From the NCBI GenBank assembly GCA_963855995.1, contig OY979716.1, positions 22,682,283 through 22,746,282 on the forward strand: 64,000 nt of DNA, written 5' to 3'. The notes beneath the pieces were generated by a model. That model made no database searches and was not told the origin of the DNA. It saw nothing but the letters and a program-made list of their open reading frames with translations. Of this stretch, positions 36,811 through 64,000 are shown piece by piece. Position numbers and translations under genes: made by a program. Origin of the DNA: Muricea muricata. Taxonomy: Eukaryota; Cnidaria; Anthozoa; Malacalcyonacea; Plexauridae. How positions within the stretch are numbered: the first letter of the stretch is position 1; every line of letters begins with the position of its first letter.

Positions 36811-36913
36811 CTCGGAAACTACATCGTGTGCACGTGGCCAGAACCGTCATTATTCATAACAATAAACGTTTACTGTACAACGAACATTGACAAAGATATC
36901 TTTCCGCTTTAGA

Positions 36914-39520
36914 ATGGCGCTTGAAGGTAAACAGCTTGCTGCAATAACATCTTTTCAAGCAGACTTGAAAGAATCAAGCAATTTTCAAAAATTTGCAAAC
37001 TATTTGATGAACTTATCCCCCACGGTATTTAAAAAGTTAAGTTTAAAACTTGACCGGAATTTGACAGAGGACACGGATGCACGCGGACGCATCGTAGACC
37101 TAGTAAATGAAAAGGAAGCTAGCAGCACGTCGGAGAGCGAAGATGACGAAACAGATCATCTTCAAGAAGTTTTTAAAAGACTTTTTAGGGATGAAAATTC
37201 TAGTGTAACATTTGAATTTTTCACGAGACTTTTGACGTTTCCGCTAAATTTATTCCGTGGGCCGACCAAAGTCATTTATACTCCAAGTTCAACTTACGAG
37301 AACATCAAGGCAAAACTTATACAATGCGAAGACAACGGTGACTTCGTAGAATTCGACACATATGCCAACAAAATGGTGGAGCAATATCTCGAAGAGAAAG
37401 ACTTCGATATTGTTGCGGGCGTCAAAATAGAGCAAGCACGATGTGCACTTTATAGAAACGACTTGAACAAGACTAAAAAACTCGCGCGTGAAGCTCACGA
37501 AGTCGCGGAGCACACGCGTTTTCCACCACTTTTCCACGCACAAGCCTGGCTCATGATGAGTTCGCTGTCTCGAACAAAACGCAAGTTAGGAAAAACAAAA
37601 AAATATTTGGACTTAGCTGAGCAATCGTTTGAGTCGGGCTACAGTTTGGAAGAATTCGCGCATTTCCATGAAGAAAAAGGCACTTATCTTGATAAATTTC
37701 TTGGAATATCTGCCAAACCAGACGAGCAGCTGAAGGCGCTTGCTCTGACCAATTTCCAGAAAATGGGCGAAATCGGCGCGCAGGATTCACGACAGCGCGT
37801 GAGCGACAAACAACGATTTTATGCTATGACAAAAAGTGCAAGAATCCTCTTAGATTCCACTTCATCGTTTGGACGGCGCGACCGGATTGTGACGAAAGAT
37901 TCTATTCGCCTCGCCGCGGAGTGCCTCGGGACAATAAAGCGCGATCTCCTGAGCAATATACCACGTGGGTCCAAGATCCAGTTTCAATTGGTGGAAAGTG
38001 ATCTGTATTACAGGCAAGGCAAGTTTGAAGATGCGATGGAATTGTTGAAGAAGTCTTTTGATGAGGCAATTGAATTTGGATATGGAAAAGAAGCACCAAA
38101 AATAACACAGGTAGTATCGGGAGAGGTGAGGGTTGATCCAGAAATAGGTAGATTACACTGCAGCTGCACGAGAGAAAAATATCGGGCATCATGGCAACCT
38201 GATTCTCAGGGTCTTCACCTCCGCTACCCGCGCTACGGCGAAGACCCTGACACAGGCTGGTCACGTGGCACCCAAATTTTGGGTGCTTGACATTGGTACT
38301 TACAGGGATAGGTAAAAACGCGTTATCACAAATTATTGTCAAACAACAAGGGAGACCGACGAAGCGAGAAGTCATCTGACACTAAAACCGTATCTTTGCT
38401 TTCTTCTGTGTTTGCATCACGCTGTTGTAATCTTAAAACCTGTTAATCTGAAAAGTGTAGTTTGCTTGTCTGTACAACATTTACTTTGATTTATGACCGT
38501 ATTATATCCCAAATTCCCCACAATTTCGTACTGTACAAATAGTTGTTAGTGAAATATTTTTTGTTTTTTAACCATGAATATCGTCTCAAGCTATGTTATC
38601 ATCCACCAATATTTGCTTGTAAAATGTTCGGATCAGATAAATTAATGATACGCCTTTTAATTTTAGATTTTAAGGATTAACAGGTTTTAAGATTACAACA
38701 GCGTGATGCAAACACAAAAGAAAGCAAAGATACGGTTTTAGAGTCAGATGACTTCCCGCTTCGTCGGTCTTCCTTGTTGCTTGACAATAATTTGTGATAA
38801 CACGTTTTTACCTACCCCGGCTAAATACGAATGTCAAGCACCCAAAATTTGGTTGCCACGTGACCAGTCTGTGCCAGGGTCTTCGCCGTAGCACGGGTAG
38901 CGGAGGTGAAGACCCTGAGAATCAGGTTGGCATCATGGAGTGTCATAATGTTAATTACTCCGCCTGCCGTAGGCGAGGCGGAGTTTTAAATTCGCTCCGT
39001 TTCTGTTTTCTTTTTTTTCTTTTTCTTTTTATTTTTTTCGGGGTCGCAAGTAGGCGCAGCGCTCATGTGTGATACCGCTGGTCCAAGCGGTATCGAGCAT
39101 GAACACTGCACCAACTATGACACCGGAAAAAAAGTTTAAAAATAATAAGAAAAAAAAGAGAAATGGGGCGAATTTTAAACTCCACCGCGCTTACAGCAGG
39201 CGGGGCAATGAGGTGTTGATTATTTGAAGTCGTAACACTGGTTGGATGAGTAAGAGATGTCACTTACTTGACACCTTAGCTAGAAGAAGAGCAGTTTAGA
39301 AATGATGCATGCAGCTGTCTTTTGTAAATTCAATTAGCTTTCCAGTAATTTTTTCATTCTCTTTCAGCGTATCGAAGATATCGATCGTCTTATGAATGCG
39401 AAAGTTGACATTGTTGATGAAAATTCATTAGAGCGACAAAGTAGCAGCAGTTCGAGTTGTCATGAGAGTGAAACGTCACAAAGTGGAAGTGATATATTCA
39501 GTTCAGAATTTTTGTACTGA
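36914..39520 (+). CDS. TPR-like protein, gene 2 (two exons)
   Basis: Exon 1 is 36914-38110 (399 codons), the intron 38111-39367 (GTAGTA donor, CTTTCAG acceptor) and exon 2 39368-39520 (50 codons plus TGA). The frame is uninterrupted and the predicted length 449 aa. It aligns along its whole length with gene 1: MALEGKQLAAITSFQADL start, acidic linker with SESEDDETD, then TPR-like helical pairs (KMVEQYLEEKDFDIVAGVKI, KTKKYLDLAEQSFESGYS, LYYRQGKFEDAMELL) and a Ser/Glu tail ending SSEFLY. I chose the ATG at 36914 because it aligns with the gene 1 start and is preceded by CTTTAG, a possible acceptor for a 5' UTR exon. The frame also stays open past the exon 1 donor to 38290, but the spliced form matches gene 1. 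Function unknown; TPRs bind proteins. Confidence 0.82.
38195..38929. mobile_element. MULE-like MITE (735 bp) in the gene 2 intron
   Basis: Long inverted repeats of about 260 bp start CAACCTGATTCTCAGGGTC and end in the reverse complement. A 9-bp perfect target duplication, GCATCATGG, flanks it (38186-38194 and 38930-38938). Long TIRs with 9-bp duplications are the mark of Mutator-like elements. No transposase. The intron of paralogous gene 1 lacks it. Confidence 0.9.
38955..39215. mobile_element. Second foldback in the gene 2 intron
   Basis: Left arm ACTCCGCCTGCCGTAGGCG...TTTTAAATTCGC, right arm GCGAATTTTAAACTCC...GCAGGCGGGGCA, diverged. The centre contains a separate hairpin, GATACCGCT/AGCGGTATC (about 39070-39093). 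It sits a few bases from the MULE-like MITE. Confidence 0.65.
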
Positions 39521-43167: not shown

Positions 43168-44345
43168 CAGGGTTATAATAATAATAATAGTAACTTTAAT
43201 AAAGTGTTGATGTGTTTAGCTAGTACAACTAATTGAGGACACTATTTGTTAACAAATATTTACAATTATTAGATGTAAACATATTGCGTTATTGCTCAAT
43301 TTAGAGTATTACATAATATTTCATTACATTCTCACGAGCTGTATATACATACAAAGCACACCAATGAGCTCTGGCTCCAAAGAGAAAAAAAATAGACTCA
43401 TTAGTATGCTCCATATATAGCATACTAAATATTTAAATATTTTAGACTATAAGTTTCTTGACATCACGTGGGTATGTATAATAGCATTCACATCATAGAA
43501 CACCGAGCTATCTATACAGAGCACACCAATGAGCTACTAAAACAAAAGAGCAAAATGAGCTCACTCGTGTGCTCCATATAGAGCATGAATAATAAATATA
43601 TATAAGAGAAAAATGGGCTAATTAGTATGCTCCTTATAGAGCAGGCTGATGTGTTAATATGATACACTATAAGCTAACTATCATTAGTATTTTCATGGTT
43701 ATGATCATGTTTAAAGTTGGATAGATGACAATCACCTGTATTCAGTGGAAAATTAACCCAAGTAAGACACACAGGCTTCGTGGCCATCGTCCACATAACA
43801 CCGAACACACATGATCATTGTCCATCTCATATATGAATTATTTTATATAACATTCATTATATTAGCTTATTTAAGTTATGTTCAATTGAAAAAGGTATAC
43901 TTTAATGAGCTACAGAGTTCGCAACAGTTACCATTATTGTTCATTGCACACTCTAAATCCGTGTTCCGTATTTTGTTCTCAAAAGATGATAAGCTTAGAG
44001 AATCTCTAACGTCAGCATCGAGTTTTGACCAAAAAGATGGTCCTAAATGTCTCATGGAATGCTTTCCCTAGCATATAGTTTCAGTCCTTGGTATGTTAAA
44101 GTCACTGTTCCTCGGTGAATAGTTAACATTCTTGCAATTGAACAATTTGGAGACAGTACATGATACAAGTCCTTGTTTAGCTTTGTACATTAATGTGGCA
44201 ATGTCCTGCAAACGCCTATTTTGCAGAGTTGGTAATTTGGCTTGGTGAAGTAATTCGTTGTATGATTCCGCTTTTATTTTGTACATTGCTCTAAAAGCCC
44301 GTTCTTGAATACTTTCTAGCTCCCTGCTATCTGATGCTTTACAAA
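43168..44345 (-). mobile_element. LINE 3' end (RT C-terminal region and 3' UTR)
   Basis: On the minus strand, coding sequence from about 44340: AESYNELLHQAKLPTLQNRR with LQDIATLMYKAKQGL and YSPRNSDFNIPR, then after a frame break LGPSFWSKLDADVRDSL with FENKIR to about 43930. This is the C-terminal end of a CR1/L2-type RT protein. The 3' end is probably the (TTATTA)n run at 43168-43185 with a preceding AATAAAGT-like context. A local duplication sits at 43343-43650, inside the presumed UTR. Confidence 0.7.
43343..43650. repeat. Local duplication, about 165-bp spacing
   Basis: The unit with AAGCACACCAATGAGCT near 43355 and TATGCTCCATATAtAGCAT near 43405 recurs from about 43515. A third partial block (TTAGTATGCTCC...AGAGCA) lies near 43620-43645. 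Confidence 0.6.
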
Positions 44346-45116
44346 ATTGTCAGACCAGGTTATTATCCAGCTCAGTCACTTTAAAAACTGAAGGCGGAGT
44401 GCAGAGCTTAAACTAGTCATAAGCATACTGCTCATAAATTAACTTATTGTACCCAGGAAATCATATAATATCCCAGGTACAATACGATAGTGTATTCATA
44501 TTATCTCTCGAAGCACAGAGCAAAGTATTTGAAACAGGTGTGTTTGTATGAATCCGCCTATTCTTTACCCCTATGGGAATTTGCCTTAAGTATTTTCAAC
44601 TTTGACTGGGGCATTTTAAAACCAAATACGTAATTACATTCTTGAAATAATAAAATCACTTATTTCCCAATGATGAATAGAGGTAAATAACCTATATTTA
44701 CTATGAAACAAAAGCAGATTCACTTTTCGTCTAAACGAGCCAAACGTCGCACGTAGACGCATGTACGCCATAAGCGTACCTATTTTTCAAATGTGGGGTT
44801 GAAAATTTCCAGCTCTATCATCAGTTCTATGTTTTACGAAGTAAAACATAGGGGTGGAGTGTTGTTATTTGGACATATATCAGAGAAAACTCTTAAATAG
44901 ATCTATATGTTTATTCAGATATGAAGAGCTAAGAGATCGTTTCTTATGATACCAGCAATGGAAAACTGTTACTGTGTAATATCAAGTGAGGATGAACCAA
45001 AATGAGTGCTTATCATGAAGTTAATTGGAATTTAAAAATTGGTAAGTGGAAACATAGAACTGCTACCTAAATTTTATAGTTGTTGAAATGTCGACATGCA
45101 AGAGAATAGAATTATT
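44346..45116. other. No recognisable gene
   Basis: AT-rich, with no long open frame and no repeat that I can support. Confidence 0.4.
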
Positions 45117-45835
45117 TTTTGTCAACACCGCGGAAAAACGTCTGCGCATGCGCAAGTACTTGAAAATATTGTGGGGAATTTAAATCCCGTTTCCTGAAGC
45201 AAAATCATTCCTTTTAATTGCTGAAGATAAGTGAAACAAACAAAACAACATTAGGACGAGTAGTTTGGCTATTAATAAGCAGTTTTCTAAGGTTAAGAAC
45301 ACAAAATTTAATTTAAAAATTGACGTTTGTGTCCGAGAGGCGTGCGAGTACTTCTTGAAAAATTCTCGAACACTGGATTAAAACACAAGAGTTTTGCAAA
45401 CTGTGAAAGAGTTTAGCATCTGCATATGCTTAAGTTGTATAGCAGGTCATTACCTTTAAATACAGTCAACGCAAAATTTTTTCATTCTACGCCAAAAAGT
45501 TATTGGCAAAAATGTGGATAAAATTACCCTATGGAAAATTTCCTTTTTCATTCGGTCGAGTAGCTTTCATAAACAATAAATTTTTCATTACTCACCTTTG
45601 GCCTGCATCTAAAATACTATTATTTTCTAGGCATGTAAACTACAATTATTTCTTGTTTTTAAGTTCGTACGTTCGTTGGTTTGCTAATAATTTTACTCCA
45701 AAGGCACATATGTGAGGTACTTCTTTTCACCGCCATATTGCGAAATAAACAAGCTCGAAACACTCGATTTATCAAGCCAATCTCAGTAAAATTGACGCAT
45801 GCGCAGACGTTTTTCCGCGGTGTTTTTTTTGTCCC
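45117..45835. mobile_element. Non-autonomous TIR element (about 0.7 kb)
   Basis: CACCGCGGAAAAACGTCTGC plus GCATGCG at 45126-45152 recurs as reverse complement at 45797-45823. The GC-rich termini stand out from the AT-rich centre. No ORF with similarity and no clear target duplication. Confidence 0.6.
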
Positions 45836-48800
45836 GGTTGTCCTTAACTGCAGTTTTTTATGAGTCAATTTTAAAAAGCTGTTAATTAGGCTATGTTTAG
45901 TCAAGTATCACACATGAAAATGAATTATATTTCCCTACCGTTTAATAGAATAAGTTCTCGTTTTCTCGAAATATGTTTATGCTTGTTCTTGTTCAAAAAT
46001 ATAATATATGTACTTGGTTCATTACTAACAAAGAATCACAGCTAAATATAAAGCATAGCTCTTAAGCCACTCTCACACGCTGCAGTTTTTCTTGCGGCTT
46101 GCAATGCAGTTCTACTCTTGAGCGATACAAAATTGGCCAATACGCGTCTTCATCGCATTTTGATGTCTTCTTCATAAATACCTATTAAATATTTTTAACT
46201 AATTAACATGTCTTGAAAGTAGAATTGCTTTGCGAGTTTGAAAAAAATTTGTAGCTTATGACAGTGGCTATTGCAGCATATTTTAGAGCTTTTTGTTGCT
46301 AGAAAAAAATTACATCACTATTCTAATTTTGGCTAGAATCAAACTATACCAGTTTTTACCCTGAATATTGCAAATAGTTTTCAAGTTTCTAATAGTAATT
46401 TTTTTTTAAAAACGTTGGGTTAGCTTGCTATAAAAACTGGCAACTAGCGTCGAAATTTTTTTTCCAATTTGTTTTTCTTTGAATAGTAAACAGTGAAGAT
46501 CTAAAAATTGTCCAGGAGTCAAGTGATGTCAATTACAACTATCAAGGGAAATCTACTACTGACCGTCGAGGAAAGTTTATTTAAATCACCGGAAAAGGTC
46601 TCCAAAATCTTAACTTGTGTCGTCATTATTCTCGCAACGAGATTTATCAATCTCGTAGTAAAAGTGATGAGCATTCATGAGCCATGCGAAGTCCGTACGT
46701 GCCAAGATATGGAGTTAAAACGAAACTTAAATACTCTGGCTGATAAAACTTGTCACAGGATGTGTTGTCTCCCTGGACGTTGCTGAGTCCTCCCATAAGC
46801 CAGCTTCTGTGACAGCTAGGTTTGAAAGAATTCTACGCTCAATGTCGTAGGGTGGAAAAAGCAAAAACGTTCGACAAAATAACCGTTGTTGCTATTAAAA
46901 ACGTCCAAAGTTTATCCATATGTTTTCAGTCGACCTTCATATCACAACAACTACCGACACAGTCACGCCGCTGACCATTGATTGTCTATCATGTGGATTT
47001 TCATTCCCAACAGCATTTCGAATCCGTGTTCAGTGATGTTGTGGAATTATAGCTGGTATACCGCAATGACTTTCGTAAGTTTGTTTTAATTTACTCTAAA
47101 AAAATGCGTTCAAGCCTTAATTACGGTTTGTTTTTGAACATTGGTTTGTTTAATTAAACGTCACGTTTGACTCCTAAAAATGTACACTTTGCTGGACTTT
47201 ACATTTAATTAAAATGTATGATTAATTGATATAACGTACAGGTTTGGCATGTCAAAGGCGACGTTTTAATTGGGAAACTAATCTTCACAAAACCAAAAAC
47301 AACGCTTAAATATAATTTCAATAATTTCGTTTAACGGTTATGATTACCGGTAATGAGTACGGTATAAAAAGAATTACTCCGGCGTTCCGTCATCCCGCCG
47401 TTCCGCAAAAGTGCTAGTTATATATACTATCCGATTTTCGATAGGCTGCTGAAAATAAGTGTAAACGTGCTGAAATCTGGTTAATATTTTAAATTTGTGG
47501 ATGCAAAAGAAAACGGGATGAAACGCATTCTGCTGTGTAAAGTTACGAAGGGAAAACTGTTGTTGGTGTACATTAACGTACAGTACTCCTGTTTTAGTGA
47601 ATAAAGGAAAACGCAATGAAGTCGGTACTGAAAAGGCAGATGCTTAAGACTTGATAGTTAGTAACTATAATTCTTTATATCACTAAGTTTATGTCCTTTT
47701 GCAATAAAATATTAACAGAAAACACGATGACCTTAAATCTTACTGTATTTAAGAGTTGGACCTGAACACAGATTTGAGTGTTTCTTGTATTTTATTGGAA
47801 GTCATCGTAAGCATATAAATCTCTTTTTTTAAAAAAAATCGTGTTAGTAGTGTCTGTTGGATTGAGTTAATTTTGAGAAGTAAAGCCGGGTTGCTATTGT
47901 TATCAGAAGCAGATATTAACATTTGCAAACTTTCATCTACGCATATTAATGATTTTTTCTACTTTAGAAATCTGCTGTGTAATAAAAATGTAAACTGCGT
48001 TAAAAAGGAATGCTACCAAAGGCTAACAGAAACAATGGCAGAATTGGTAAAGACGATAGTGGCTGAAGTGTTGGAACAAAATTGAGGTACAAGATTATTA
48101 TTTCTCTTCTGATGTTCACATGCATGGCAATGCTCAAAATATCGTGTCCATCTGTCACTGCTGCAGGTTTTTCCAGCATGAATGTCAGTGTTTCCAAATG
48201 ATATGTATGTCTTTCTTTTGTTTGCTGGAATACTCTTTGTAACTATGTCGTCTGATTACATAACTTTTGTTGTTTTAACAGTTTCGTAATTCTGTTCCTT
48301 TTGTCTGTGTTTGTTGAGGTTGTTTTACTCTGTTTAGTTTTGTTCTGTCCATTTTTGTTTGTTTTAGTATATGCGTTTGTCTTTAATAACCAGGGTTGAT
48401 TATGATAGCATTGCTGTTTTTGCTGTTGACAATTAACATATTGCTCATTGAAGATGCTCATTAAGCAATTATTTACAACGGATTTTACAATAATTGTGCA
48501 TTTCCCAAATACAGTACATTTGTTGGGTAAATTTCAGTACACAATTACAGCCGTGTAATCTCGCCTGTACTGTAATCTAAGCGGTTCACGGTTTGCTAAC
48601 GGGGCAACCATTTGACTATTTCCAACACATCGTTTGAGTGATTTCGTGCAAGCGAAGGAAATATGAAACTTTCTTCGTCATAAAAAATGCGCGTATAAAA
48701 TCCTTAGTTAATTCATTAAATTCCATTTGATTCAATGTCCATTAATGGGGGTAAGGTACAGTTGATTTAGTCTGATTAGAAATAGCTTCACAATTATTTC

Positions 48801-50780
48801 ACATTGTAAGACTGGTTGACTTAATACCCATTAGCTCTTACCCTATATTTTAGTTATCAGGTCAGCCACATTGGGCTGGTGCGCGCGTATGTTGACCGGA
48901 AATGTTTCATGTTGAACGGATTACTGAAGTATGCTATAAGCTGGAACGTAACTGTTTTATGCGACTTCCTACCATGTGAAAGTAAAACTCCTTGAAGAAA
49001 CTTCAACTCCCACTTTACACAGGCCTGCACTAATTTTCTCTTAGGTCTATACCTCGCGGGCTGTCTTTGTACTTTCTTCTTTCGATCATGATTTCCCCAG
49101 TTCGCTCAAAATAAACTCCATCCTTCACCCAAGCAAACACACTAATGAATACCAAAAGCAAAAATGTATTTATTTAGAATAAAGTACATACACAAACGTG
49201 TCTCTTCCTCTTTGGTTTTGCATAAGCTGACCGGTTGCAGGAATCCGTCTTCCTCGAGGGCTCATTCGAAATGACCTCACGAGTTCTGCCTCCCGTTGGA
49301 CAGCAAAAGCACATGCAACCCTATTCGCGAATCTACAACATACGTCATTTGCGATCACATGTAGTTATCAATCTAATATTCCCTGTCTTCTTTCCAGTAG
49401 GAAAGATAAATAGGAAAGATAGTTAACTCCGAGCCAAACTCAATAGTGCATTACGGAGTTCCATTAAGTTCCATTAAGGAGTAGACCACTCAGAGTCAGG
49501 ATCGCATTTAAGATCGTTTAAATGGTCAACAATACCGTTATAGCACCCCACCAGCAACGCCTCTAGATACAGACGCGATATCGTCCGCTCGTTTTTCTTC
49601 ATCCGTCAACATATTAAGGCAATTACGGCGTAGTTGACTCGGATATTCGTACTCGAACCCACAGCATTTTTCTGTGGAAAGCTTGCAAAGCAGCCCAAGC
49701 AAGTGTTATTTGTTGATAGAGAAGTTTCTCGTTTACTAAAAGTGGGGCGTACAATTTGTAGTTTGATTGCAGGCGATGTGGTTCTCTGCGGGACCTACCC
49801 CACTGGAGCATGAACTACTTGTTCAAACAGTATTCCAAGACCCTTTGCACCCCATGTGTGTTTTTAAAAGTAGCGCACAGAGACATGCCTAAATTAGAAT
49901 TATATAGATACAACTTAAACTCGTATTTAAATTTAACTCCAAATCTTAGCAATTTTTGCATGAAGTCTTCTGAGCAGTTGTATATGCCGGTCGATCTTTC
50001 ACTGTTTTATTACGATATTCCGCCTTGCAGTATGCATTGATGTCTTTTCAAAGTACGCTTGGGTAATTCCATTGAACAATAAAACCGGCCCGCTAACAGA
50101 ATGCCTTCCAAATTGTTTTGCCTCTGGGCGCAAACCTGAAAAAATCATGACCAATCAATGAATGGAGTTCTTGAACTAACATTTTTTTATTGAAGCCGAC
50201 ATATTTTACTGTGGCCACACAAAGTTAAAAGCCCCGACTACAATATTAACGTAAACTAGATAGACAACAATATTTTGTTGATCCTTATTAGTGCATAACA
50301 ACACGTAAACACTAATGAAATTGTTTCATTTCCGTTTTCTTAAATTGTAGTACGTATATTTCTGTTTCTCAATAAATTATGAATAATAGCAACTTTACAT
50401 GGTAAAAGTGGTTGAAGACCATTAAATTCCCCTTATTAAATCGTCAGTGAGTCATTCGATCATTGAGTATGGGTCTCAGGGCTAGCTAGCTACATGGCTT
50501 CAAGTTTTAACAGTTTCATATGAACCCTACCTTGTAGATCGATCGCAGTTTAATAAAATTGAGCTAAATGCTATGTGTAAAGGAAAATGGAGGAAATGTA
50601 TAATTTTAATCTATTTATTTCCAAATACGCGTGGGAAATTCAAATTTTAATTGTGGCACGAGTTTGTTTATAAAATTAACCACCTTCACTTGATCGCTGG
50701 TTATTTGTTATGTTCTTTAGTAATTTGTTTTCAAGTTTCATACCTTTATTTTAAAGTATATCATTGAAGCTATATTACTA
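45836..50780. other. Gene-poor stretch
   Basis: I recognise no gene here. A Cys-rich open frame at 46508-46786 and minus-strand frames around 49170-49811 have no supportable homology. A T-rich low-complexity zone lies at 48240-48400. Confidence 0.4.
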
Positions 50781-50784
50781 TAGT

Positions 50785-52323
50785 CTGATACTTATTATTG
50801 TTCCACGTAGATGGTTTTGGGACATCGATCCCAAATTAGCCCATTGAGACATTCGTTGACGTTCTGAGTCAAGCCATGAGTGCATTTTTGTAGAAGGACA
50901 TGGTTTCTCAGGACATTGAACCCTGGCTTAAACTTGGGGATGCCATTCTTGTGTTTATAGGACTTCATGTCGCTCTATTTTCCACACCAACTGTCATTTT
51001 CGTCAGGGCAAAGGTGATGTTGTGGATCGGAATCAGTTGATGCAACATGGTGTACCACTTGTCTGATGGCTGTTGCCATTTTGTTTACATCATCTAAGTT
51101 CTCTTTTACCGCCAAGCCATATAATTCTGCAGCACATCAATCTTTCCATCCGTTAATCTTCCCTTACCACCTAAACCTTTCCCATGACTTAGCTTCGCCC
51201 CTTTCGACGCATTCTTCACCTTTCGCAATCTAATGCCGACTCACTTTTGTACATGTCCTACGTACTCCAACTTGCTAGGAATACGCTCCTCACCATTGGG
51301 CTTGCTCTCTACAATATTATTGTATGTAGAAGAGTCACCGTCACCGAGCATGTTCTTGTATTTAAGTCCCCGCGATACCAAGGATCGTTCAAACATCCGC
51401 AGAGCACCGGCTGCCTCCATGCTGTTTGCACTTCCAGTGTGGTTGATCTTGCACTGGTGGCTAGTTTTCCACTCTGGGTACTTAACATCATTTACTCTTT
51501 TTTTTGCTATTTCTGGCATGCTTTGCATTTATCGGACATGATCTCCACAACCAAACATTTCTCCGTGTCTAGTAACAACACCATTATGAGATGTATCTCG
51601 TTTTTGCCAACTTCCATCAAGGGAAATTCCACAATCACCCATATCATTTGCACAAACCTCTTTGACATTTATGGCATTGGTAACCATCGTTTGCCAACTG
51701 CTTTACAGCATGCAGCAGTTTATTGTTTGGAATTATCATGCAATTAGAGAAGCTTGTTGGTGGTGGCATGTTCATAAGTTTAGCAAATATTACCATAGCA
51801 CTGTGTCCACGACCAATTTCCCTGAAGGCCAAGACTGCTCTTGTGTTTACATTGTAAGATGGCCCTTGTTTCTGGGATGTATGGAACCGATGCGTCCAGT
51901 CACATTCAGTATTGTCACATTGTAAAACGATGCAATGTGAAAACCCATTTTTCTTCGTCATGTCAATGTGAGAACTCATTTGTTTACCAATGCGTCACCA
52001 AACACCCCAAACAATACTTCTGCGTTTATAAATATGGTGCCTTCTTTAACATAATCACTTTGACGATGATTCTCATCTAATTTTGCCGTGAAATCTCTAA
52101 GCTTCACCTCGAAAGGCTTTGCAAAGAAGATGGTTCGCCATCTTTGACTCCCCTTGATGGCGGAATTCTCTTCTTTTTTTCTCTTTCTGTTCTGCAGATT
52201 TCCCATTTTTTGCCAAAAAGTTTCATAAGATGACAAAATATCAGAACTGTAAAAAACGACAGTATATCTTCGATAATTCTGCAGAAATCGCAGAGTCGAA
52301 AATGCTAAAATTGCAGCTAGCAT
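50785..52323 (-). pseudogene. Mutator-like (MULE) transposase, decayed
   Basis: The minus strand carries blocks of a Mutator-like transposase domain in order: NVNTRAVLAFREIGRGHS and MNMPPPTSF (about 51790-51890), NHTGSANSMEAAGALRMFER (about 51380-51450), the catalytic-core GDGDSSTYNN (about 51315-51345), EYVGHVQK (about 51241-51264), CPDENDSWC (about 50990-51016) and LTQNVNECLNGLIWDRCPKT (about 50810-50880). Such enzymes cut and reinsert the element's DNA in the nucleus. At least two frameshifts and an in-frame stop right after the CPDENDSWC block disable it. The N-terminal limit (52323) is the end of an adjoining open frame and is uncertain. No terminal repeats were recognised. Confidence 0.8.
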
Positions 52324-52896
52324 TTACATTGTATTTCTATTCAATAAGTTAAAAATTGTCACCAGCTATGTACAACGTAATCAAGTTCATAAAAGTTTTT
52401 TTACAAGACCTTTTTGATCAGAAACCTCCGATCTTCGTCAGTTGATACTAAAAACTAAGAAGCTATCAACACGCTTCTACTAATTTGTAGTTTGTTCACC
52501 ACTATTTATACTATTATCATCTTCTTCTGTCTATTTATGGAGACACTTGCACCAGTGTTAAAGTGAGAAACAGCATCATACACACCCAAAAGCAAAACAT
52601 CTGAGCCAACAAACACCGTCTTTGGCGATGTATGAAAGGTCTTAATATTCTCGTCCACCTGTTATTAGTCCTTACTTTATTTGGAGCCCTTATCAATTTT
52701 TTTCTGTGTTTCCTGGCACGAATGTCCGAGGACGAACTGGACTCCGAGGACCACCTGGAGTCCAGACTGCTTTGTATTTGGAAAGATCTAGGTATTGAAA
52801 ATTATTACAAACAGACAGAAAACTCCGAAAAAGGACATCTAGTAAGTCAAATTATAAAAAAACATGTTTATAACGCGTGCTCTGATTTGCCGAAAG

Positions 52897-53074
52897 CCGT
52901 GTTTGGATCAGGCCATCCAAACACGGAAATCAAAACTGCTTTCGTGGGAACTTTTTTAAAACTTGTTATTTTACTTCGAGTTGAGAAAAGCGCGCAAAAT
53001 CACTCGCCTTCGGCTCGTGTTTTGCGCGCTTTCTCGCAGCTTTCCCGCGTGTTTGGATCAAGCCATCCAGACAC
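52897..53074. repeat. Cluster of three hairpins (foldback)
   Basis: CCGTGTTTGGAT/ATCCAAACACGG (52897-52926, perfect 12-bp stem), GAAAAGCGCGCAAAA.../...TTTTGCGCGCTTTCTC with tip CGCCTTCGGCTCG (about 52983-53035), and GTGTTTGGAT/ATCCAGACAC (about 53049-53074). The outer two hairpins are copies of each other. An open frame (52632-53090) crosses the hairpins and is unlikely to be a real gene. Confidence 0.7.
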
Positions 53075-53231
53075 AAAAACCATAAAGTAATTGTATAGTA
53101 TAATTTTGTGGAAACAAAATTTGGAATTTGGGGTTAAAGTAGCGACGGAGGATTGTTTACTCTGTGTTACATGCCTGTGTAGAATTACTAACGCTAACAT
53201 GACGTTTTGTTGCCGCTACAGACTACAGATT

Positions 53232-53469
53232 GCATGCACACAGCAAAAAATGAAAAACCTGTTTATGGTTGATAAGAACATGATTAAACAATGTTTTGCT
53301 GCCCACATTGTGTACAGTTGTCAACAATATTCTTCACCATTGTTAAATCCGATTCAGGCTCAACAACATTGTTCAATATTGTCAACAGTCTAGAACAATG
53401 TGGGCAGCAAAACATTGTTCAATCCTGTTCTCATCAACCCTCAACAGGTTGTTCATTTTTTGCGGTGTA
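53232..53469. mobile_element. Foldback MITE-like element
   Basis: Left arm GCAAAAAATGAAAAACCTGT...ACAATGTTTTGCTGCCCAC, right arm GTGGGCAGCAAAACATTGT...AACCTGTT...ATTTTTTGC. Arms about 80 bp and well conserved. Possible flanking AGATTG duplication, not certain. Confidence 0.7.
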
Positions 53470-54187
53470 GATTGTGATATAAACAAGTATTACAATTTAA
53501 ATCAAGTCGAGTATATTTAAATGGTTCAGAAAGAGATGGATCAGTTACTTGCAGATTCGTATCACTATATTAATTAAGTATGACAGATTTTTTACAGTAT
53601 ACATCATTGCATTAGAATTGTAAGTACGAAACAAAACAACAAATCTTGCATCTAAACACAGTGATCAGAACAAATCAAGTTTGGCATGTTTTTCAATAGC
53701 AACCATTCCAATAAGCTTTATAATGAACCGTCGATCGTTGAATTGATTGGGTGTTTACGAGTAGAGATGGCGATGTTCGTTTTAAATGTACCATCCAGTA
53801 ATGGGGACAATCGACTTCAGTTTTGTCGTGGACGTATTAACTTTCGTATTTGAAGGGACTTGTGAAATCTCCATAATATCCACTTTAAGACAGTAGCAAT
53901 ATTTAATAGAATAGCGTATTTCAGAAACAGTTTCTAGCATCCATTCTGATATAGTAAGTGCATATGGGACACCACGATGAAGTTAGGAATGATTGAGCAT
54001 CGGTATTGCATTGTAGACATCATTTACAGCCGTGGCAATTGAAGTGTTCCTAAAATATTGCATCACTTCATCTGCTCACTAGAACAAATTGATTTGACAG
54101 TTGGTGGAACTGTTTACAAACTTCACAAATCTGACCATCTCTGGTCACTTCCTGCTTCGTTGTGATTGGCCGCTTGTGCCAAAGCCA
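53470..54187. other. No recognisable gene
   Basis: Flank of the CACTG-ended element. No exon or repeat was recognised. Confidence 0.4.
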
Positions 54188-54194
54188 CACTGTT

Positions 54195-54560
54195 AATTTT
54201 AGGGTGTCAATTCAACACCAAAAAGTGGTGTTAAAAAATTAGGTAAAAAATGACACTACTTTTTGGTGCTATTTTAACACCACCATTAGTGGTGCTGATT
54301 TAACACTTAGATATGGTGCTGAAACAACACCTATGTTTGGTGTCACATCAACACTGGTTTGTGGGGTTAATCTAACACCTATTTGCTAGTGCTAAAATAG
54401 CACTTGTTTTCAAGGTTAAAGTAACACCCTTTTAGGTGCTATAGTGACAGCAGGTTTTAGAGTTAATTTAACACTTATAGTGTAGAGCTAAAGTAACACT
54501 TGATTAACAGTGCTAAAGCAACACTTTTTTGTGCTAAAATATCTGTTTAAGGATTTGATT
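54195..54560. repeat. Left subterminal AACACC/GGTGTT repeat region
   Basis: Degenerate, irregularly spaced copies of AACACC, GGTGTT and GGTGCT in both orientations, starting directly at the left terminus. Confidence 0.75.
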
Positions 54561-54685
54561 TAATACTTTCAACCGACACATTAATAGGCACACAACTAAA
54601 CAGTGATAGGTTAATGAATGATTAATATATTACTTCTTAACAATATATTATGCATGTCATAGCATTACATAAATGTACGTGTAAA

Positions 54686-57600
54686 TCATTTATGGAGTCC
54701 AAGCTCACTAAGAAGTTTTTGTACTGAAATTCTTTTTCGTGCATCAGTATTCCTGTCCATGGTGACTGCCTCCAAGAATGCATATATGTTGGATACTCCT
54801 GGAGTATATTCCATATTTAGGATATAAAAGGTGGCACGAAGTATAGCCACCACCACAGCAACTTTGATGTTCTTTCCACCAAAGCTTAAATAGATCCGCC
54901 CCTCCACAGCGATATAAAATGGGTCCAGGTTCGCCAGATCTCCAGATGCCACAATTCTTGGATAGGTGGAATTTTTCACTGCTTCATCAATGGCATCATC
55001 ATCATCCTAAAAGTATTCATTTTGATGTTAATCTTTACTATGTTGCATTTGTAATTCCTGTATATTTTTTGTGCTATATCCTTAAATTTTTTTTCCGTAT
55101 TCATATACAGTTATAATAACACACATGGAAATGGGAAAAACAAAAGTTGTGTGAAAAAAGTTCTGTATATCACCATGAATTTTTGTATATTTCTTCTGAA
55201 AATACAATCTTAGTTCCTTAATCTACTACTTACACCTGTGCTCTGAGTTGACATCAAATGCAGACTGTCAATTATTTTTTGATACATGAACCTATCACAT
55301 GATACAACATCAAAAATACTCACTGTGCACAACATGAAAAAGAGGTCCTTTGACGTGGCCTTCTCTTTCAAACAGGACTGTAGTATCAGTGTGGTGACCG
55401 TGCTCTCGATATCTGTAAAATACGTAAAACAGTAAAATTAGTATAATACAAGTCAACAAACAAAATGTCTTCTGTATATACAACCATATCTTCTCACTGC
55501 AAGCACTGGAAGTTTACAAACGAACAATGATTAAAACATGCTTAGCAAATTTATCCATACATTGAAAATACATTCTGTGCACAGACTAAGTAAAATGTTC
55601 TTATAAGATTCTGATAATATTGAGTCAATAAAGCTTTTTTCAATCTGTTTACAGCAGTATTTTCTCTGTCAATTTTACTCAAAAGTGGAGTACTGGTATT
55701 TTAAACTCAGCCTTGCATAGCAATGAAAATAAACACTCGCAATGCATGATATACAGTGCATGTATAAACATTATTGCAAGTGTTTATTCTCATTGCTATG
55801 CAAGCTTGAGTCAAGCAAATAACTACCAGTACTCTACCACTTACAGTTTGAGTAAAATCATCTGGCCTTAAATATATACCATATTTCTCTCTACCTGCTT
55901 TCTTAGATGGCTCCTCCAAAAGCTTGCTTCTCATTTCAGCTTTCAGCAATTTTATGTTCCGGCTGTTGCTATGGGCTGCCCGCTCTAGCATGTTGGGTTC
56001 AATGGCATTGAATTTGCTGGCAACATTAGCGACAGCCTTTTCCTCTTCCAAAATCCTGCCAAACTCTGCCTTCACCTAAAAGTTATAAGTAGAGTTAACA
56101 ATTACCACGTATTATACCAGGAAAACGTGCAGACCTCTTCATATGTGGTAGACATTTGTGCACCACCTGTTCCTAACACTTCCAAAAACTGCAGTTGCAA
56201 CTAACCTCTGTAATCAGTTGAAGTGCAGGATATTCAATTAGGATATCATCCAAGCTTTTTGCTTCCAATAAGAGTTTTTGGCGTCGGTAAGGATATGTCA
56301 ACTCCATGAGTTCTTTAATTAAATTAAAATTTTTCTTGGTCTTTGTCATTTCCACCACCATGACTTTTTTGTGCTCCTCACAGGTTTCCGTAGTTTCTCC
56401 ATCAATCATGTTGGGTACATCAAGCTTACGCTTTTTCATCTTTGGTTCCATAGCCTTCTCATCTTTTTTGAATTAGTTTTGCAAACTTTCTTCCCGATAT
56501 GTACTTTGGTTCGTGGCATGTTCTTGAACCGATTCGCAATGGCCTTAAACCATGAGCCCTATGCCAAAAAAATAACATAAGAATTAACATTGACCAATTA
56601 GTAAGACTTTCATTCCCATTGACAAGTGGAATTTCCTGTTGTTAGACACAGAATTATGGGCACATAAGCAACTAAAACCTTCCTCCACATAGTATACACC
56701 AAAGTAGGGCCCATAGGGGTTTAAAGTTATAATGAACAGACCGTGGTCTGTCTCCAAGTGTAACTGCCAAGACATTGAACCCATAAATTAGTGAGGACTA
56801 AATTACACTGACACTAGCTAGTCGCTACAAGTTTGCCAGGTTTATCGGGCACTTGAGAATGAAATGCTACAGTAGTATGTCTAAATGTGCATACACTATA
56901 TCCAAAAACCTGATTCAGCATTTTTTCTTCTATAAAGCAAGATAATGTTACTCCTGAATAGGAAAGTATATGCTATTTGTGTGTATTAGAAAATTATAAG
57001 TGTTACTTACAGTACCACCACCTAGGGAATCAGTTAAAAATTGATATCTCTCAATTATCATGGATGCCACACGTTGTTTTTCTTCTCGGTTTGGGAATAA
57101 AGAATGTATCTTTATCGAGTTACAAATATCCCTGGTAAACTCATCTCGAACATTTCCAAACAGTTTTTCAGCTTTAAGAGCTTCGTTAACTTTTGGAGAG
57201 AACTGTAAGCAAGAAAAATGATGATCAGTAAAATTTCTGTAAGAAATCTAATGTGTTTCTTGCTTTCTTTATCCTTTATCACCCAACAAAGAAGTCCTGA
57301 AATGTAACACATAATATGCTTCTGAAAGCCAACCAAAAATACATAAATTTAAAACTTACAGTATCGGGAAGCTTGAAATTCTTTATCCAGTTCTTGTTAG
57401 TAGCCTTGGTTTCTTCAATTGCAAAACCAGGTGAGGATTGCAATGATTCTGATGATGTGCTACCAGATGTTTCTGGGGAAACCAGTAAAGACTTTAGGTG
57501 ACTCAGTTTGTTCGAAAGATTTTGGGGAAAATTAAATTCCTCATCGTCATCACAACTTATAGTAGGTGTCTGTGGTGTACATGGTGTTGATGGTGAAAAC

Positions 57601-58171
57601 ACAGGTGTGAAGGTTTCTTTAACAGTGGTCCCCTATAAAATTATTTTGATGTTAAAAATGAAATTGGTAATACATCACATTAATCTTGTACCCAGAGCTC
57701 ACATTGTTGCCATTAGCTCTCAGGTAAATAAATTGGTACTTTCTCTTCATACTTGGTCAAGATTGACATCATCACTCTAGTCCTAACTCCTAATACACTG
57801 GTCAATGTAAACCCCTACTTACCTCACCTCGCCCTATATGGGGATAACCTGGGCTAGGGATTAGCAACATATTTGGCCTTTTACTGGGGAATTAGCTTAT
57901 TTGCAAATCGAACGATATCAAATCTCCACATATTCCCAAAGTGGGGGGAGGAAGGGGTTTACATTGACTGGTGCTGTGATGCATAATTAAAATGAAAGGC
58001 TATAATATTTCTCCACAGCATTAACAAATGAAAGACTCTCACCACAAGATCAATTTCTGCTTCATTCAAGGTTTTTAATGCTTTTCTGATAAGAGCAACT
58101 TGGCCTCCTTTCATCCCACATGCTTTCAAGAGTTCGTCGGATGTGTTTTCTAAAATTTCAACTGTATCAAA
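54686..58171 (-). pseudogene. SAMD3-like multi-exon gene inside the CACTG element
   Basis: Exons on the minus strand: 58171-58043 (end of a SAM-like domain, LLKACGMKGGQVALIRKALK), 57632-57360 (disordered, ending KNWIKNFKLPDT), 57202-57011 (FSPKVNEAL...IIERYQFLTDSLGGGT), 56558-56206 (GSWFKAIANRFKNMP, then a basic stretch and LLLEAKSLDDILIEYPAL), 56075-55845 (VKAEFGRILEEEKA), 55412 or 55404-55324 (LILQSCLKEKATSKDLFFML) and 55006-54686 (FYIAVEGRIYLSFGG to the TGA). GT/AG borders fit, with one phase mismatch that the AG at 55405-55406 would cure. The order matches, from memory, the SAMD3-like family expanded in fishes. The A6 run at about 56463-56469 shifts the frame, and the first SAM half was not found, so this copy is probably dead. 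Role unknown. Confidence 0.65.
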
Positions 58172-58489
58172 CTGTTTAGGGAAGAAAAGAGATTGTTTTT
58201 AAAATGTGTAAGTTAACAACTCTGACAAACCATCAGTTCTACTTCATGTAATTCAAACATTAATGCTAATAACCGACAACTTCCGAATCAGCGACGATAG
58301 GATTTGGCAAAAATGTGCTTTGATGCACTTTGAAAGGAAAATATTTACCATACATAACCAAACATTGTTTTTATGCGGTATTGAAGAATCCCTTGTCATT
58401 ATATCTATAATGTGAATGTCAACAAATATTCGTTGTTTTCCTCCGACTGTCCATGGGTTGTTAATAATATTTGACAATCACGGACTGAC

Positions 58490-58812
58490 TGACAAACACA
58501 TGCTTGTGTGTTAACATTACACACCTTTGTGTGCTGTTGCGCACACCTTATTGTACTAAAACACACCTTGGTGTGTTATTAAACACACCTGTTTTTAGAG
58601 TGCACCTGCTGTCCTTCCGCAGGTGTCATTTTAACACCTTCAAAGTGGTGTTATACAATTTTAGTGGTTAAAATGGCACTTCAGAAAGGGCTTTTGGTTG
58701 TTTCGTCTTAAATTAGCGCCGGAAATGGGTATTAAATAACACTTTTGTTTAACACCACCCTTAGGTGTCAATCTGACACTAGTCAAGGTGCCACTTTAAC
58801 ACCCTAAAATTA
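58490..58812. repeat. Right subterminal AACACC/GGTGTT repeat region
   Basis: Dense ACACC/GGTGT motifs (for example ACACACCTTGGTGTGTT and AACACCACCCTTAGGTGT), a mirror of the left subterminal region, ending at the interrupted right terminus. Confidence 0.75.
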
Positions 58813-59346
58813 CAGTCAAAATACAAAAAGTGTCCCGCTTCCGCTTCTGTAGTCTGTTGCGATTTACTGTAGTTTGTTGTATTTTTCGGTATTAGATATC
58901 GATTAAACGCAATAAAATATATATTGTACTGGGATGCCAGTAAATAGACCGGAAGAACATGCTTCAACGCACTATATTGTCTTAATTTAAATCAAACTTT
59001 TATTAAAATTATCGCTCTAAGAAATACATGTTTTATGTGGTAAAACACTGTTCCTCCATGCACAGTTTTTGTTACTGCCCATGACCCATAAATTAAAATG
59101 TTTTATAAATTTCATCGTTCATATGGCGATCGCACGAACTCTCATACATACAATGTCTATCCAATACATATATTTCGCACCATTTATCATCGAAAAACAC
59201 TTACTTTGTTGAAACATGTCATTTCAAAAACGATAGTTGCGATATTTGCAGATAAATCGCTCCTCGCTACTGAAAAACAAAACAAAGTACAGTAAATCAC
59301 AACAGAGTACAGAAGCGGAAGTGAGACACTTTTTGTATTTTGACTG
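58813..59346. mobile_element. Tc1/mariner-type MITE (534 bp) nested in the element terminus
   Basis: Inverted ends CAGTCAAAATACAAAAAGTG and the reverse complement CACTTTTTGTATTTTGACTG, arms about 75 bp. TA flanks both ends (58811-58812 and 59347-59348). No transposase. It split the right terminus of the CACTG element, so it is younger. Confidence 0.9.
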
Positions 59347-59354
59347 TAACAGTG

Positions 59355-61379
59355 TGTAGGAAATATTCATGTTTGCCTGGAATGTTTATTTACTTGAGGG
59401 ATGCAATTTCTCTGCATGAAAATGCTAAATGCTGCGTTGTGGAAATCAGTCATGCTCTGTTCTAGATTATCTCTTTTTCATGATTATATATAGTTCAAAA
59501 TGAATGCTGGGAACTAAAAACTTTAAATGGTTAAAAACAGCAATGCTATAGTAACATGCGTGCGAATTATTAGACATTTTTTCTTTTGGTCTATTGTTTA
59601 TACTGCGAGATTTTATGTCGTCACACATGTATTATTTCTCAGAATTTGTCGGAACATTTTCTTGTCAGTTTTTGTATTGTAGCATTTTCTCCTCGTTATT
59701 TATAATTACAATTACTTGTTGGGGTTTTTTAGTTGCATGTGGACATTCGTTCACAGAAATTTCCGTGTTGGTCACTCTTTTTATGATCAATGAGTGTGTT
59801 TTTGTAAATTACCGTATTTATTGTTTGTTTTAATTGTATTACAGTTTTTGTATTCTGTTTCATTGTCAGTCACTGCTTTTGTCTTGTAATGTCATTTTTT
59901 GTTGTTGGTTGTTTTGTGTAAAATTTGTACGTTCTTTTCTATTTTTCCCCGACACGATTACTTCCATATCCTTTCCACGCATTGCCGATATGTGACAATT
60001 CAGTTGAGTTTTAATAATCTACCAGAACGAGTTCTAAACCAGCACATTGTGACCATCAAATGTTGCTCATCATAAACATTAATTGAATGAAGTTAATATC
60101 TACAGTCCAACACCTTGTCTGGATGTAACATGCAAGCTCACAAATTGTGAAAACAGTTCTCGAGTATGTAAAGTGACAGTGTCTAGTGTTTTTAGATAAA
60201 AAAAAACCATTGGATGTCGTTAATGTGGAACTGTATAACATAAATATGTAGCAGAGTTATTTTACTTGTCTAGCATTTTGATAACACTGACTATTTACAT
60301 TAGATAGATAAACCATCAATATTTATTGGTTAGGTGATATGATCCAATATATCTGCAAACTATCATCTTGCATGTTATTTCTTTCTTTAATTGGGTAAAA
60401 ATTGATATAATTATTTTTGTTTTTGAATTCTAATTGATATATTGTTTTTGAAATAGAATGAAATATATATTTGTCTATTTTCTTCGATGTTCCTAGTTCG
60501 ATATTTTTATGCATCTGTGATGTTCCAACTTTTTTGAAGCCAAAGTCTTTTCTGTAGGTAAAATTTGACAAGACTGGTTAATATAATTCTCGCGTTACAA
60601 GTATAAAAGTTTGAGCTGCGAGTGTGACTAGTAAGTTCCATATACAGGGTGTCCCAAATAACCTGGAACCATTAAGAAATTAATTTTGTATATCCTTTTT
60701 AAATTCTTTATTATTTTGAATGAAATATATAATTATTTGTTACTGGTCCGAGGGTTTGCGATACCGAGAGAAAAATGATTCACGCTCGGAAAAATCGTGC
60801 TCGTCCTGTATATCAAACCTAATAAAATTTTACGTATTGTTTGTACCCAGCCCTCACAAATTCGATGATCTGTTCTTCACTGAATCAAAAAATTTAGGCA
60901 CTGGTTACTATTTCTGAGTAGAAGCTTTGTTCATTGTATTGCCATAATTAACATCTTTATTTAAAAAAACTTATTTGCCCGTAGTAAAGCCTATAGTTGC
61001 CATTTGTGTTTATCCATATCGTGGCGATATCACAGAATATAAAATAAACAGAAGGGCCACTAGAGTCTGAACTCCCTTTGAAATTCGTGTCCTCATGCAT
61101 GTCACATTGCGCTTGTTCATTATGCAGGTTCTGGCTGTTCAATTGCCTTTTCCAGCCAATAGAAACGCTGAACTAACTGGCTGTTCTGCCATTATTCTGG
61201 CCAATTAATTGCATAAAAAATAGGGAGACATGTTGCACTGCTGAGTGGCCCTACTGTTTACTCGCCATACTGTGACGACATCAAAGTGATCGATGTTATA
61301 TAGATGGTATGGTGCACTTTATTTAAACACGCTTCCCTCATCACCATAGATAATTTTTATGAGGCCTCGCCATACATAA
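59355..61379. other. No recognisable gene
   Basis: AT-rich. A CAGGGTGTCCCAAA motif near 60645 resembles ends of some dispersed repeats but could not be assigned. Confidence 0.4.
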
Positions 61380-61565
61380 TAGATTATGGACTAAGACTAC
61401 AATGATTTAAGTATAAATATAATGCAGATCCGTTGACCTGACATAGTTGGCACCTGTTATAATTCGCGCTGCTCTATTTTGTAATTTCTCTTTGAGCGTG
61501 CTTCCACAATTATCCCACAAAGGCTGGAGCACTAGAGAATTATACAAATTTTTTAGAGTTTCCTT
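61380..61565 (-). mobile_element. LINE RT C-terminal fragment
   Basis: The minus strand reads LKNLYNSLVLQPLWDNCGST then LKEKLQNRAARIITGANY, the post-RT region of CR1/L2-type proteins, with small deletions. Truncated on both sides. Confidence 0.75.
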
Positions 61566-61834
61566 TTTAGAGATCTACACTTTTCTAGATCTGTACACCT
61601 TTGTAGAGATCTACACGTAACATGACTAATTTGAATACAGCTGACAAAAAAGGTAGATCTAGGCTGTGTCACATGGTTGAATAGTCACATCGTTGAGAAT
61701 GACTTTGCTTGGACAGTGAAGACCAAATTGGAAACTAGGCTTAACGCGTATGCTAGGTCTACCTAAAGGTCCTAATACCAAGCTTCGCATTGACGCAATA
61801 TTTTGTACTTATATTCAAGCATTGCTTTAAACTA

Positions 61835-62406
61835 TAAAGAAAACAAAACTAATAACAGAAATTAACAGAAAAGAAAGTAAAATATGTAATGTGACAGGAA
61901 AGTCTAACTACTCATCAACTCTATATGGAGAAGTTATGCAGAAATACACACAAAGTTTAGTGTGTTTTTCGCGATGATTTAGTAATTGAATTTAATATGC
62001 TTGAATGATAATAAGGCGCCTTGTTCTTATGGCTTCTGTAAATAGGCAGAGAAATTGTGCACTTTAGATTTAAAATATGCATTATTTTTCGAGTTCGGAT
62101 CTGTAATCGACGTTCCTAGACAAATTAAGGTCATTTAATTGTAGAACAGGACAAACTGCTTAAATAACAATAAAGTTCAAAAGTCTATTTTTGGAACCCA
62201 AGTTTAACCCCCGTGACCATTGTTATTGTTGTGTGGAAGTACCACCAAATTAAATGACTTACGGCTGTATTGCTGAACACTCCACATGTGATTGAAGACT
62301 GGACAATTTTGACAATATAATAGTTACTTGAACTTTTCAAGGTTACTACGTGTGCAAGTCTGATATGTTTGTTTTGAAATAATTCGCAATGAATACGCTC
62401 GAAAAC
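61835..62406 (+). repeat. Copied upstream DNA of the third TPR-like gene
   Basis: Direct repeat of 35770-36349. At the point where the 36-kb copy has the 461-bp foldback, this copy runs straight on (GCTCGAAAACTATATCG), giving the pre-insertion state. Confidence 0.88.
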
Positions 62407-62500
62407 TATATCGTGTACAAGTGGCCAGAACCATCATTATTTATAACAATGAACACTTACTCTACAATGAACATTGACCAAGATATCTTTCCGCTTTAGA

Positions 62501-63085
62501 ATGGCACTTGAAAGTAAACAGCTTGCTGCAATAACATCTTTTCAAGCAGACTTGAAAGAATCAAGCCATTTTCAAAAATTTGCAAACTATCTAATGAACT
62601 TATCCCCCAAGGTATTTAAAAAGTTGAGTTCAAAACTTGACCGGAATTTGACAGAGGACACCGATGCACGCGGACGCATCATAGACCTCGAAAATGAAAA
62701 CGAACCTAGCAGCTCGTTGGAGAGCGAAGATGACGAAACAGATCATCTTCAAGAAGTTTTTAAAACACTTTTTAAGGATGACAATACTAGTGTAACATTT
62801 GAACTTTTCACGAAACTTTTATCGTTTCCACTAAATATATTCCGTGGGCCGACCAAAGTCATTTACACTCCAAGTTCAACCTACGAGAACATCAAGGCAA
62901 AACTTTTACAATGCGAAGACAACGGTGACTTCGAAGAATTCGACACATATGCCAACAAAATGGTGGAGCAATATCTCGAAGAGAAAGACTTCGATATTGT
63001 TGCGGGCGTCAAAATAGAGCAAGTACGATGTGCAATTTATGGAAACGACTTGAACAAGACTAGTAGATTACCCTCCCCCATATAG
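62501..63085 (+). pseudogene. TPR-like protein, gene 3 (3'-truncated)
   Basis: Starts at ATG 62501, again just after CTTTAG, and follows genes 1 and 2 closely through MALESKQLAAITSFQADL, the acidic linker and the first TPR-like helices (KMVEQYLEEKDFDIVAGVKI). Homology ends abruptly at about 63060 after the codons for NDLNKT, and an unrelated tail reaches a TAG at 63083-63085. About 195 residues remain of 450, so most of the TPR array and the Ser-rich tail are lost. It may be a dead copy, or it may yield only the N-terminal domain. Its frame up to the break is undamaged, which suggests a recent truncation. Confidence 0.75.
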
Positions 63086-63094
63086 CGTTCAAAG

Positions 63095-63240
63095 GGATGC
63101 CGACAATGACGTCATGGCGCATGAACAGCACGTGAACAGCACATGCACATAGAATTGACGTCATAGCACGTGAACAGCCCATGCACATTGGTTTGGGGTC
63201 ATAGCGCGTAATCAGCACGTGAACAGTACAAATTTGGTTC
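63095..63240. repeat. Short tandem repeat with CACGTG cores
   Basis: Three degenerate units of about 45-50 bp built on GTCATAGC(A/G)C...CAGCACGTGAACAG...ATGCACAT, directly after the truncation point of gene 3. Confidence 0.6.
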
Positions 63241-63326
63241 CGAGGGTGATACGGCATGTATATCAGAAAAGAGAGAAATGCAATATAGGTTTAAAAAATA
63301 TTTATTTTAACTTTTAGTTTTACAAA

Positions 63327-63821
63327 CTAGTGATTATATTTCAGTTGATATAAACATATGAGATAATCTATGAGATTTTTAAAAGTAAAAGTTTTTTCGA
63401 TACTAGTGGATAGAGTTTGTAAAGTTAAGTATGATAGTTTAAAAGTTTGTTCAAAAATTTTCCGACATTTTGTTGGGGGTTCTTTGTACTTGAGGATTTT
63501 AAATGCTTCCACGATTAGGATCCAGATATGTTCTTTCCCGATATGTGATTTTACTTCTTCGGAACAGTTCCACTAACTACATAATTCCCCGGTGACAGTG
63601 TTTGTGTGTTTTCGTTCAATATCTTTAATTTTTCTTGTGATCAATTCTACAGTTATCGCAGCAGTCAGTTCCTTTGGAGTAAATTGTTCTTCGAGGTTAA
63701 AAATGTTATCAGAATACATCTGCTTAAAGAAATGTGCCATTGGAGCTAGTGTCCTTACGGCTTGGAGAGCAAGTGTATTAGAGTATATTGCACTCGTGTT
63801 GATGTAACTGTATATTAACAC
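63327..63821 (-). pseudogene. Unrecognised minus-strand coding remnant
   Basis: Two abutting minus-strand frames read like protein: ALQAVRTLAPMAHFFKQMYS and FTPKELTAAITVELITRKIK (63573-63821), then HIGKEHIWILIVEAFKILKY and PPTKCRKIFEQTFKLSYL (63327-63550). They are separated by a stop and a frame change, with no splice site evident. Mixed charge with amphipathic helices, no known motif. It may be one decayed or two-exon gene. Its 5' end is cut by the duplicated segment starting at about 63787. Confidence 0.3.
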
Positions 63822-63990
63822 GTAAAAAGTTTTATATTTCTTAAATGTAAGGTCATAGTTTTGTAGCGAGAAATCTGATAGATTGGTCTAGATAGATCTC
63901 AATTAACTTGAAAATGACAAAGATGAAAAAAATTGAGTGAAAAAAAACAGTAAGAGTAATGACCAATGACGTAAAATGTAATGAAGAACT
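63787..63990 (+). repeat. Start of a further duplicated upstream segment
   Basis: Matches 34783-34975 in the same orientation up to the window edge. In the 34-39 kb copy this segment precedes gene 2 by about 2 kb. Confidence 0.85.
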
Positions 63991-64000
63991 GGTTGCTGGG

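Follow-up and report, generated by a model that had tools for sequence, protein, structure and literature searches.

CACTG-ended DNA transposons of Muricea muricata linked to a SAMD3-like gene

The window analysed here is a stretch of 64,000 nucleotides of the Muricea muricata genome (contig OY979716.1), in which positions 54188–59354 form a genuine but decayed DNA transposon with inverted ends (CACTGTTAATTTTAGGGTGT...). The ends, the arrays of short motifs lying just inside them and one multi-exon gene between them make up a single coherent unit, as the original prediction had it. With a probability of roughly 0.55, we read this unit as a decayed and immobile member of a family of CACTG-ended DNA transposons whose own gene is SAMD3-like. 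In the genome, the ends, the arrays and 2-bp target site duplications (TSDs) are observed in copies at many separate sites, and the gene is linked to the ends.

The end sequence was searched with up to three mismatches in the same genome (453 Mb), where it occurs at 294 places, compared with 62 for a reversed control pattern. One end sequence was used, and pairs were taken, by their ends alone, from the 100 of the 294 places that were listed; this scope holds for all statements on listed ends below. At least 12 pairs in inverted orientation were found, and the 11 shorter than 5 kb were fetched. All 11 contain a SAMD3-like match; in the twelfth (12.4 kb) SAMD3-like exons are present by protein search. 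Each of the 11 is flanked by a 2-bp TSD, always of the pyrimidine-purine type (TA in six, CA/TG in four, CG in one), with a chance of about 0.07 per locus for such a flank match, and a 3-bp TSD was found in 0 of the 11. Two of the checks proposed with the original prediction, for further copies with the same termini and target duplications and for the regular presence of the gene in them, came out positive among the fetched pairs. Their ends start with CAC, save one of the 22, which reads CAT, and all 11 have arrays at both ends (5–11 and 7–14 sites) and no sites between, with site positions that recur across subfamilies. Searching the genome with the SAMD3-like protein gave 100 exon matches, or 64 loci after merging at 8 kb, and at 22 of these a listed end within 13 kb points at the locus (the 22 include three tandem copies of the window element, and one end counts for two neighbouring loci); in 1000 random placements, with the lengths of small contigs assumed, the mean was 0.34 loci and the maximum 4.

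The copies fall into diverged groups. Subfamily B comprises five copies of 4.73–4.77 kb, 96–97% identical, and two deletion forms of 1.72 kb, subfamily C three copies of 2.4–2.6 kb, and a further copy of 3.27 kb (L034) has 91% identity with the window copy in the part that both have. Since the subfamily-B ends are 66–81% alike to those of the other subfamilies and exon 8 of the copies is 34–95% identical to window exon 8, the linkage of gene and ends is old. An in-frame stop in exon 8 is common to all seven subfamily-B copies, which are sited at separate places, and because this broken gene is shared the subfamily must have been mobilised in trans. A young lineage is represented by three loci with identical protein-search scores and no stops, the exons seen being open. 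On the 3' side all three share the first 370 bp or so, where the third breaks away, without an end; the other two (L041 and L042) remain identical through ...AACAGTG, after which the flanks diverge. Upstream in one young copy, exons like window exons 2–5 follow in order and are open, and in exons 8 and 4 this lineage is only 41–43% identical to the window. It has the array motif GGAGT..ACTCC, which is found also in L039 and L040, two loci with the commonest listed end type (CACTGTTAATTTCAGGGAGT) and arrays of 7–8 sites each. These two (L039:101-1000, L040:101-1000) belong to a sister family, with a motif that differs slightly in each half site. Because three diverged subfamilies and the young lineage carry the gene, it is better regarded as the element's own than as a one-off capture; of the two options left open by the original prediction, cargo or element gene, the second is favoured.

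At the window locus, the left terminal inverted repeat (CACTGTTAATTTTAGGGTGTCAA) was read directly at 54188–54210 on the plus strand, and its first 20 bases have exact matches at eight genome places, three of them being the tandem copies. The right repeat, on the minus strand, consists of an inner part at 58796–58812 and an outer part (ACAGTG) at 59349–59354, between which lies a miniature inverted-repeat transposable element (MITE) of 534 bp at 58813–59346, with a TA/TA duplication. With this MITE set aside, the two ends form a 23-bp inverted repeat with a single mismatch. The quasi-palindrome GTGYTAANTTARCAC has 12 sites in the element at up to two mismatches (8 left and 4 right), none in the 58.8 kb of window sequence beyond it, and three outside the three tandem copies in a continuous neighbourhood of 304 kb. 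The left array (54203–54534) holds about 13 quasi-palindromic sites, 8 of which pass the strict motif, mostly 24–25 bp apart, a periodicity that exceeds all 300 single-base shuffles. The right array (58505–58802) has the 4 strict sites and looser ones, and its periodicity is within the range of its shuffles.

The gene lies on the minus strand and has eight exons with GT..AG borders, encoding about 530 residues, with its reading frame interrupted once. Exon 1 (58349–58399) is tentative. Exon 2 (58043–58171), matched in L026-L030, resembles the latter half of a sterile alpha motif (SAM) domain. It is followed by a Ser/Thr/Pro-rich linker in exon 3 (57360–57632) and by exon 4 (57011–57202), which has a 43% identical exon in the young copy L044 and which, with the start of exon 5, may form a putative DNA-binding region. 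Exon 5 (56206–56558) contains the interruption, a 1-nt frameshift common to the three tandem copies; exons 6 (55895–56075) and 7 (55324–55412) follow, and exon 8 (54686–55006), with the stop codon just below, encodes the C-terminal domain and has a match in every one of the 11 other paired elements. The label SAMD3-like depends on a comparison with human SAMD3: against an unverified sequence of that protein the window protein aligns collinearly, with a z of 17 and a score reached by 0 of 500 shuffles. The predicted multi-exon gene was confirmed, and no SAM domain in it was found by Pfam (see below). The Pfam match to Mucin15 is below the cut-off and was rejected. Searches of the PDB gave weak unrelated matches only, and no relative turned up in the viral and prokaryote collections apart from a rejected phage record (L001, IMG/VR), whose E of 4e-5 among candidate stretches rests on a shared 8-residue word and which has no match to the C-terminal piece of the window protein.

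As for the class of the element, subterminal arrays of short motifs are typical of EnSpm/CACTA transposons, and the family shares with these also the inverted ends starting with CAC and the 2-bp TSDs of the 11 fetched pairs, but a Transposase_21-type DDE transposase was not found in or near the element in the copies scanned. Transposase_21 (PF02992) has 57 matches in the genome, 54 of them over the cut-off; no listed end has any of the 57 places within 15 kb, and the shortest distance from one of them to a SAMD3-like locus is 25 kb. Several of these matches have identical scores and 898-aa open frames, and perhaps belong to a recently active CACTA family. The traits fit an element that works like a CACTA element; we call it CACTA-like, a putative and not an established member, because the transposase is not shown. 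The predicted CACTA assignment thus stands as to the CAC..GTG ends and the 2-bp duplications, and not as to a CACTA transposase domain in the elements scanned.

The closest parallel is maize En/Spm, a CACTA element with the proteins TNPA and TNPD, which has the same CAC..GTG inverted ends, a multi-exon gene filling the element and arrays of short sites, those of TNPA, at both ends. It differs in its Transposase_21, found in none of the copies scanned here, and in the duplications, which are 3 bp in plant elements of this kind and 2 bp here; the proposed likeness of the SAMD3-like protein to TNPA is one of role. A TSD of 2–3 bp is given as the EnSpm/CACTA range in PMC1636069 and PMC12730594. 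Among animal CACTA relatives, SmTRC1 of Schistosoma, of the TRC group, has a 2-bp direct repeat in 7 of 14 copies, as in the present family, and yields short products without Transposase_21; unlike the present family, its ends start with CCC rather than CACTG and it carries Transposase_21 (PMC1636069). CMCT elements resemble the family in having 5'-CA..TG-3' ends in most cases and duplications of 2–5 bp (PMC12730594), but they are defined by their transposase, a DDE enzyme with a C(2)C and H(3-4)H insert, for which there is here only a candidate. The coral MITEs of PMC2872659 were considered as relatives and rejected, since they have TTAA duplications. In the open literature, among the matches listed and judged largely by titles, no link of SAMD3 or the sterile alpha motif to a transposon, a transposase or EnSpm was found, nor does the passage of PMC11258905 consulted contain a link between SAMD3 and transposons; fish-type ends returned unrelated matches only. 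The family may be catalogued in Repbase or Dfam under another name.

We hold it somewhat better than an even bet that the family is best described as CACTA-like, with arrays bound by the SAMD3-like protein in the way that TNPA of maize Spm binds its own. The SAMD3-like protein would then be the TNPA-like subterminal-repeat-binding protein of the element, acting in trans on the arrays, where its dimers would occupy the spaced palindromes and, by oligomerisation through the putative SAM part, keep the two ends joined or regulate the promoter. A separate transposase would cut at CACTG and leave the 2-bp pyrimidine-purine duplication. In autonomous copies this transposase is perhaps the product of a divergent zinc-finger gene (C1:22496.8-22497.8 kb), and the shorter copies without this gene, the window's included, would move in trans. 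The gene in question (L044:124-1063) is a divergent frame of 245 aa with two C2H2-like patterns, which adjoins a young SAMD3-like gene and probably runs on into a further exon; sister copies of this young element lie at C1:99.47 and C1:36.54 Mb. Zinc-finger proteins of such a kind make up the N-terminal region of common EnSpm-like transposases of animals, which we take as a lead; on this ground and by its position the gene is proposed as a candidate transposase. In L044 the stretch between the two genes contains neither an array, of one motif or the other, nor CACTGTTA, and neither the window nor L002-L043 has a match to the zinc-finger frame at E ≤ 0.1.

Several observations weigh against this reading. 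DNA binding, SAM function and the role of the zinc-finger gene are predictions only: Pfam finds no SAM domain and nothing credible in the window protein, and no finger above the cut-off in the zinc-finger frame. No DDE or transposase domain was detected in the window element (54188–58812, where six-frame Pfam gave no family of any kind), in L029 or in the part of the young copy L044 that was scanned; the same type of scan does detect a broken Mutator transposase next to the element, and a DUF3197 match in the young copy was set aside as below the cut-off. The sequence read at the young copy stops short of the 5' end of the element, and the zinc-finger gene may lie inside or outside it; moreover, an 8-base TAACAGTG between the two genes (L044:1551) can be read as an end, standing there without a longer terminal repeat or array. 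Of the 64 SAMD3-like loci, 42 have no listed end nearby. Two unpaired loci (L037 and L038) among the 13 end loci L026-L038 give no SAMD3-like match below E 0.4, and none was found in the first 900 bp inside L039 and L040. Finally, the window copy itself has flanks that do not match (CA and TG), which could be a CG altered on both sides.

Among the alternatives, the one that survives best is that the SAMD3-like gene serves the element in regulation, by promoter activation or escape from silencing, and not by end binding in a transposition complex. TNPA of Spm is reported (PMC1636069) to act on the element promoter and together with TNPD, and the arrays are sited where a promoter may lie; their presence at both ends with recurring spacing fits end pairing, although not exclusively, and we regard a purely regulatory role as unlikely, at perhaps one chance in a handful. 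Less probable still is a SAMD3-like protein that acts as the transposase itself, in an element class not usually described and through a catalytic domain unrecognised by the profiles. No gene besides this one was recognised in the window copy or the 4.7-kb copies, it recurs across lineages, and the window copy and L029 give no DDE profile match; on the other hand, the visible parts of the protein resemble half a SAM domain, a linker and helical segments more than a catalytic core, a second gene adjoins that of the young copy, and the broken gene of subfamily B tells merely that something acts in trans. Single capture of a host SAMD3-like gene, carried along as cargo, is improbable to a degree below either of these. 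Because the unverified human SAMD3 sequence is collinear with the window protein a host relative is likely, but a lone recent capture would yield few and similar copies, and the gene is in all fetched pairs and in a lineage as diverged as the young one; a very ancient capture that the element has since put to use could hardly be told apart from the explanation we prefer. That unrelated MITE ends flank a host gene by chance, to which the missing TSD of the window copy might point, is already refuted for the family by the gene and TSDs of the 11 other pairs.

The surroundings bear on the age of the window copy. Positions 44001–64000 and the neighbouring loci L002-L017 form a 39.7-kb tandem segmental duplication of three units, element included. 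L005 and L008/L009, 40 and 80 kb downstream, were rejected as independent insertions on account of the flanks they share with the window copy, and because of these shared flanks the tandem copies are uninformative on the element borders. The frameshift and the nested MITE are common to the tandem copies, with the MITE shortened in the two downstream, and the locus would therefore be an old, immobile fossil; the 11 exonic changes among the copies (5 synonymous and 6 nonsynonymous) are uninformative on selection. No empty site was found in the 40 kb upstream of the window, nor in a diverged copy of the neighbourhood at 216–224 kb, which ends at window position 52495, before the insertion point.

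The element has received more insertions than the one MITE predicted. At least two further nested inverted-repeat elements were found, in intron 6 (55672–55858) and in intron 2 (57796–57973), the latter being another CACTG-ended element (ends CACTGGTCAATGTAAACCCC). A stretch of intron 7 (55089–55156) is found again as inverted pairs in L018 and L019, and is perhaps the arm of another MITE. The broken Mutator-like transposase (PF20700) lies 2.2 kb left of the element at 51118–51976, on the minus strand and in two frames. Similar frames starting with MALE.KQ.AAIT are located elsewhere in the window, near 29470–30735, 36866–38290 and 62471–63085.

SAMD3-like genes are present in many copies in fish and invertebrates, and mammals have a single-copy SAMD3; the likeness of the present protein to this group is its collinearity with the unverified human sequence. 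It is conceivable, if doubtful, that SAMD3-like genes go back to an array-binding gene in a CACTG class with two genes (zinc-finger transposase and SAMD3-like), with array motif and protein co-diverging (GGTGTTAA versus GGAGTTAA), and that mammalian SAMD3 is a domesticated accessory gene. The family suggests that a protein usually listed as an ordinary cell gene may be transposon machinery, and mobility would then explain why so many SAMD3-like copies are found among annotated host genes. Protein-DNA co-evolution could be studied in lineages whose arrays differ slightly and whose proteins have diverged, the SAMD3-like protein becomes a candidate for the animal equivalent of maize TNPA, and ideas on where vertebrate SAMD3 came from become testable.

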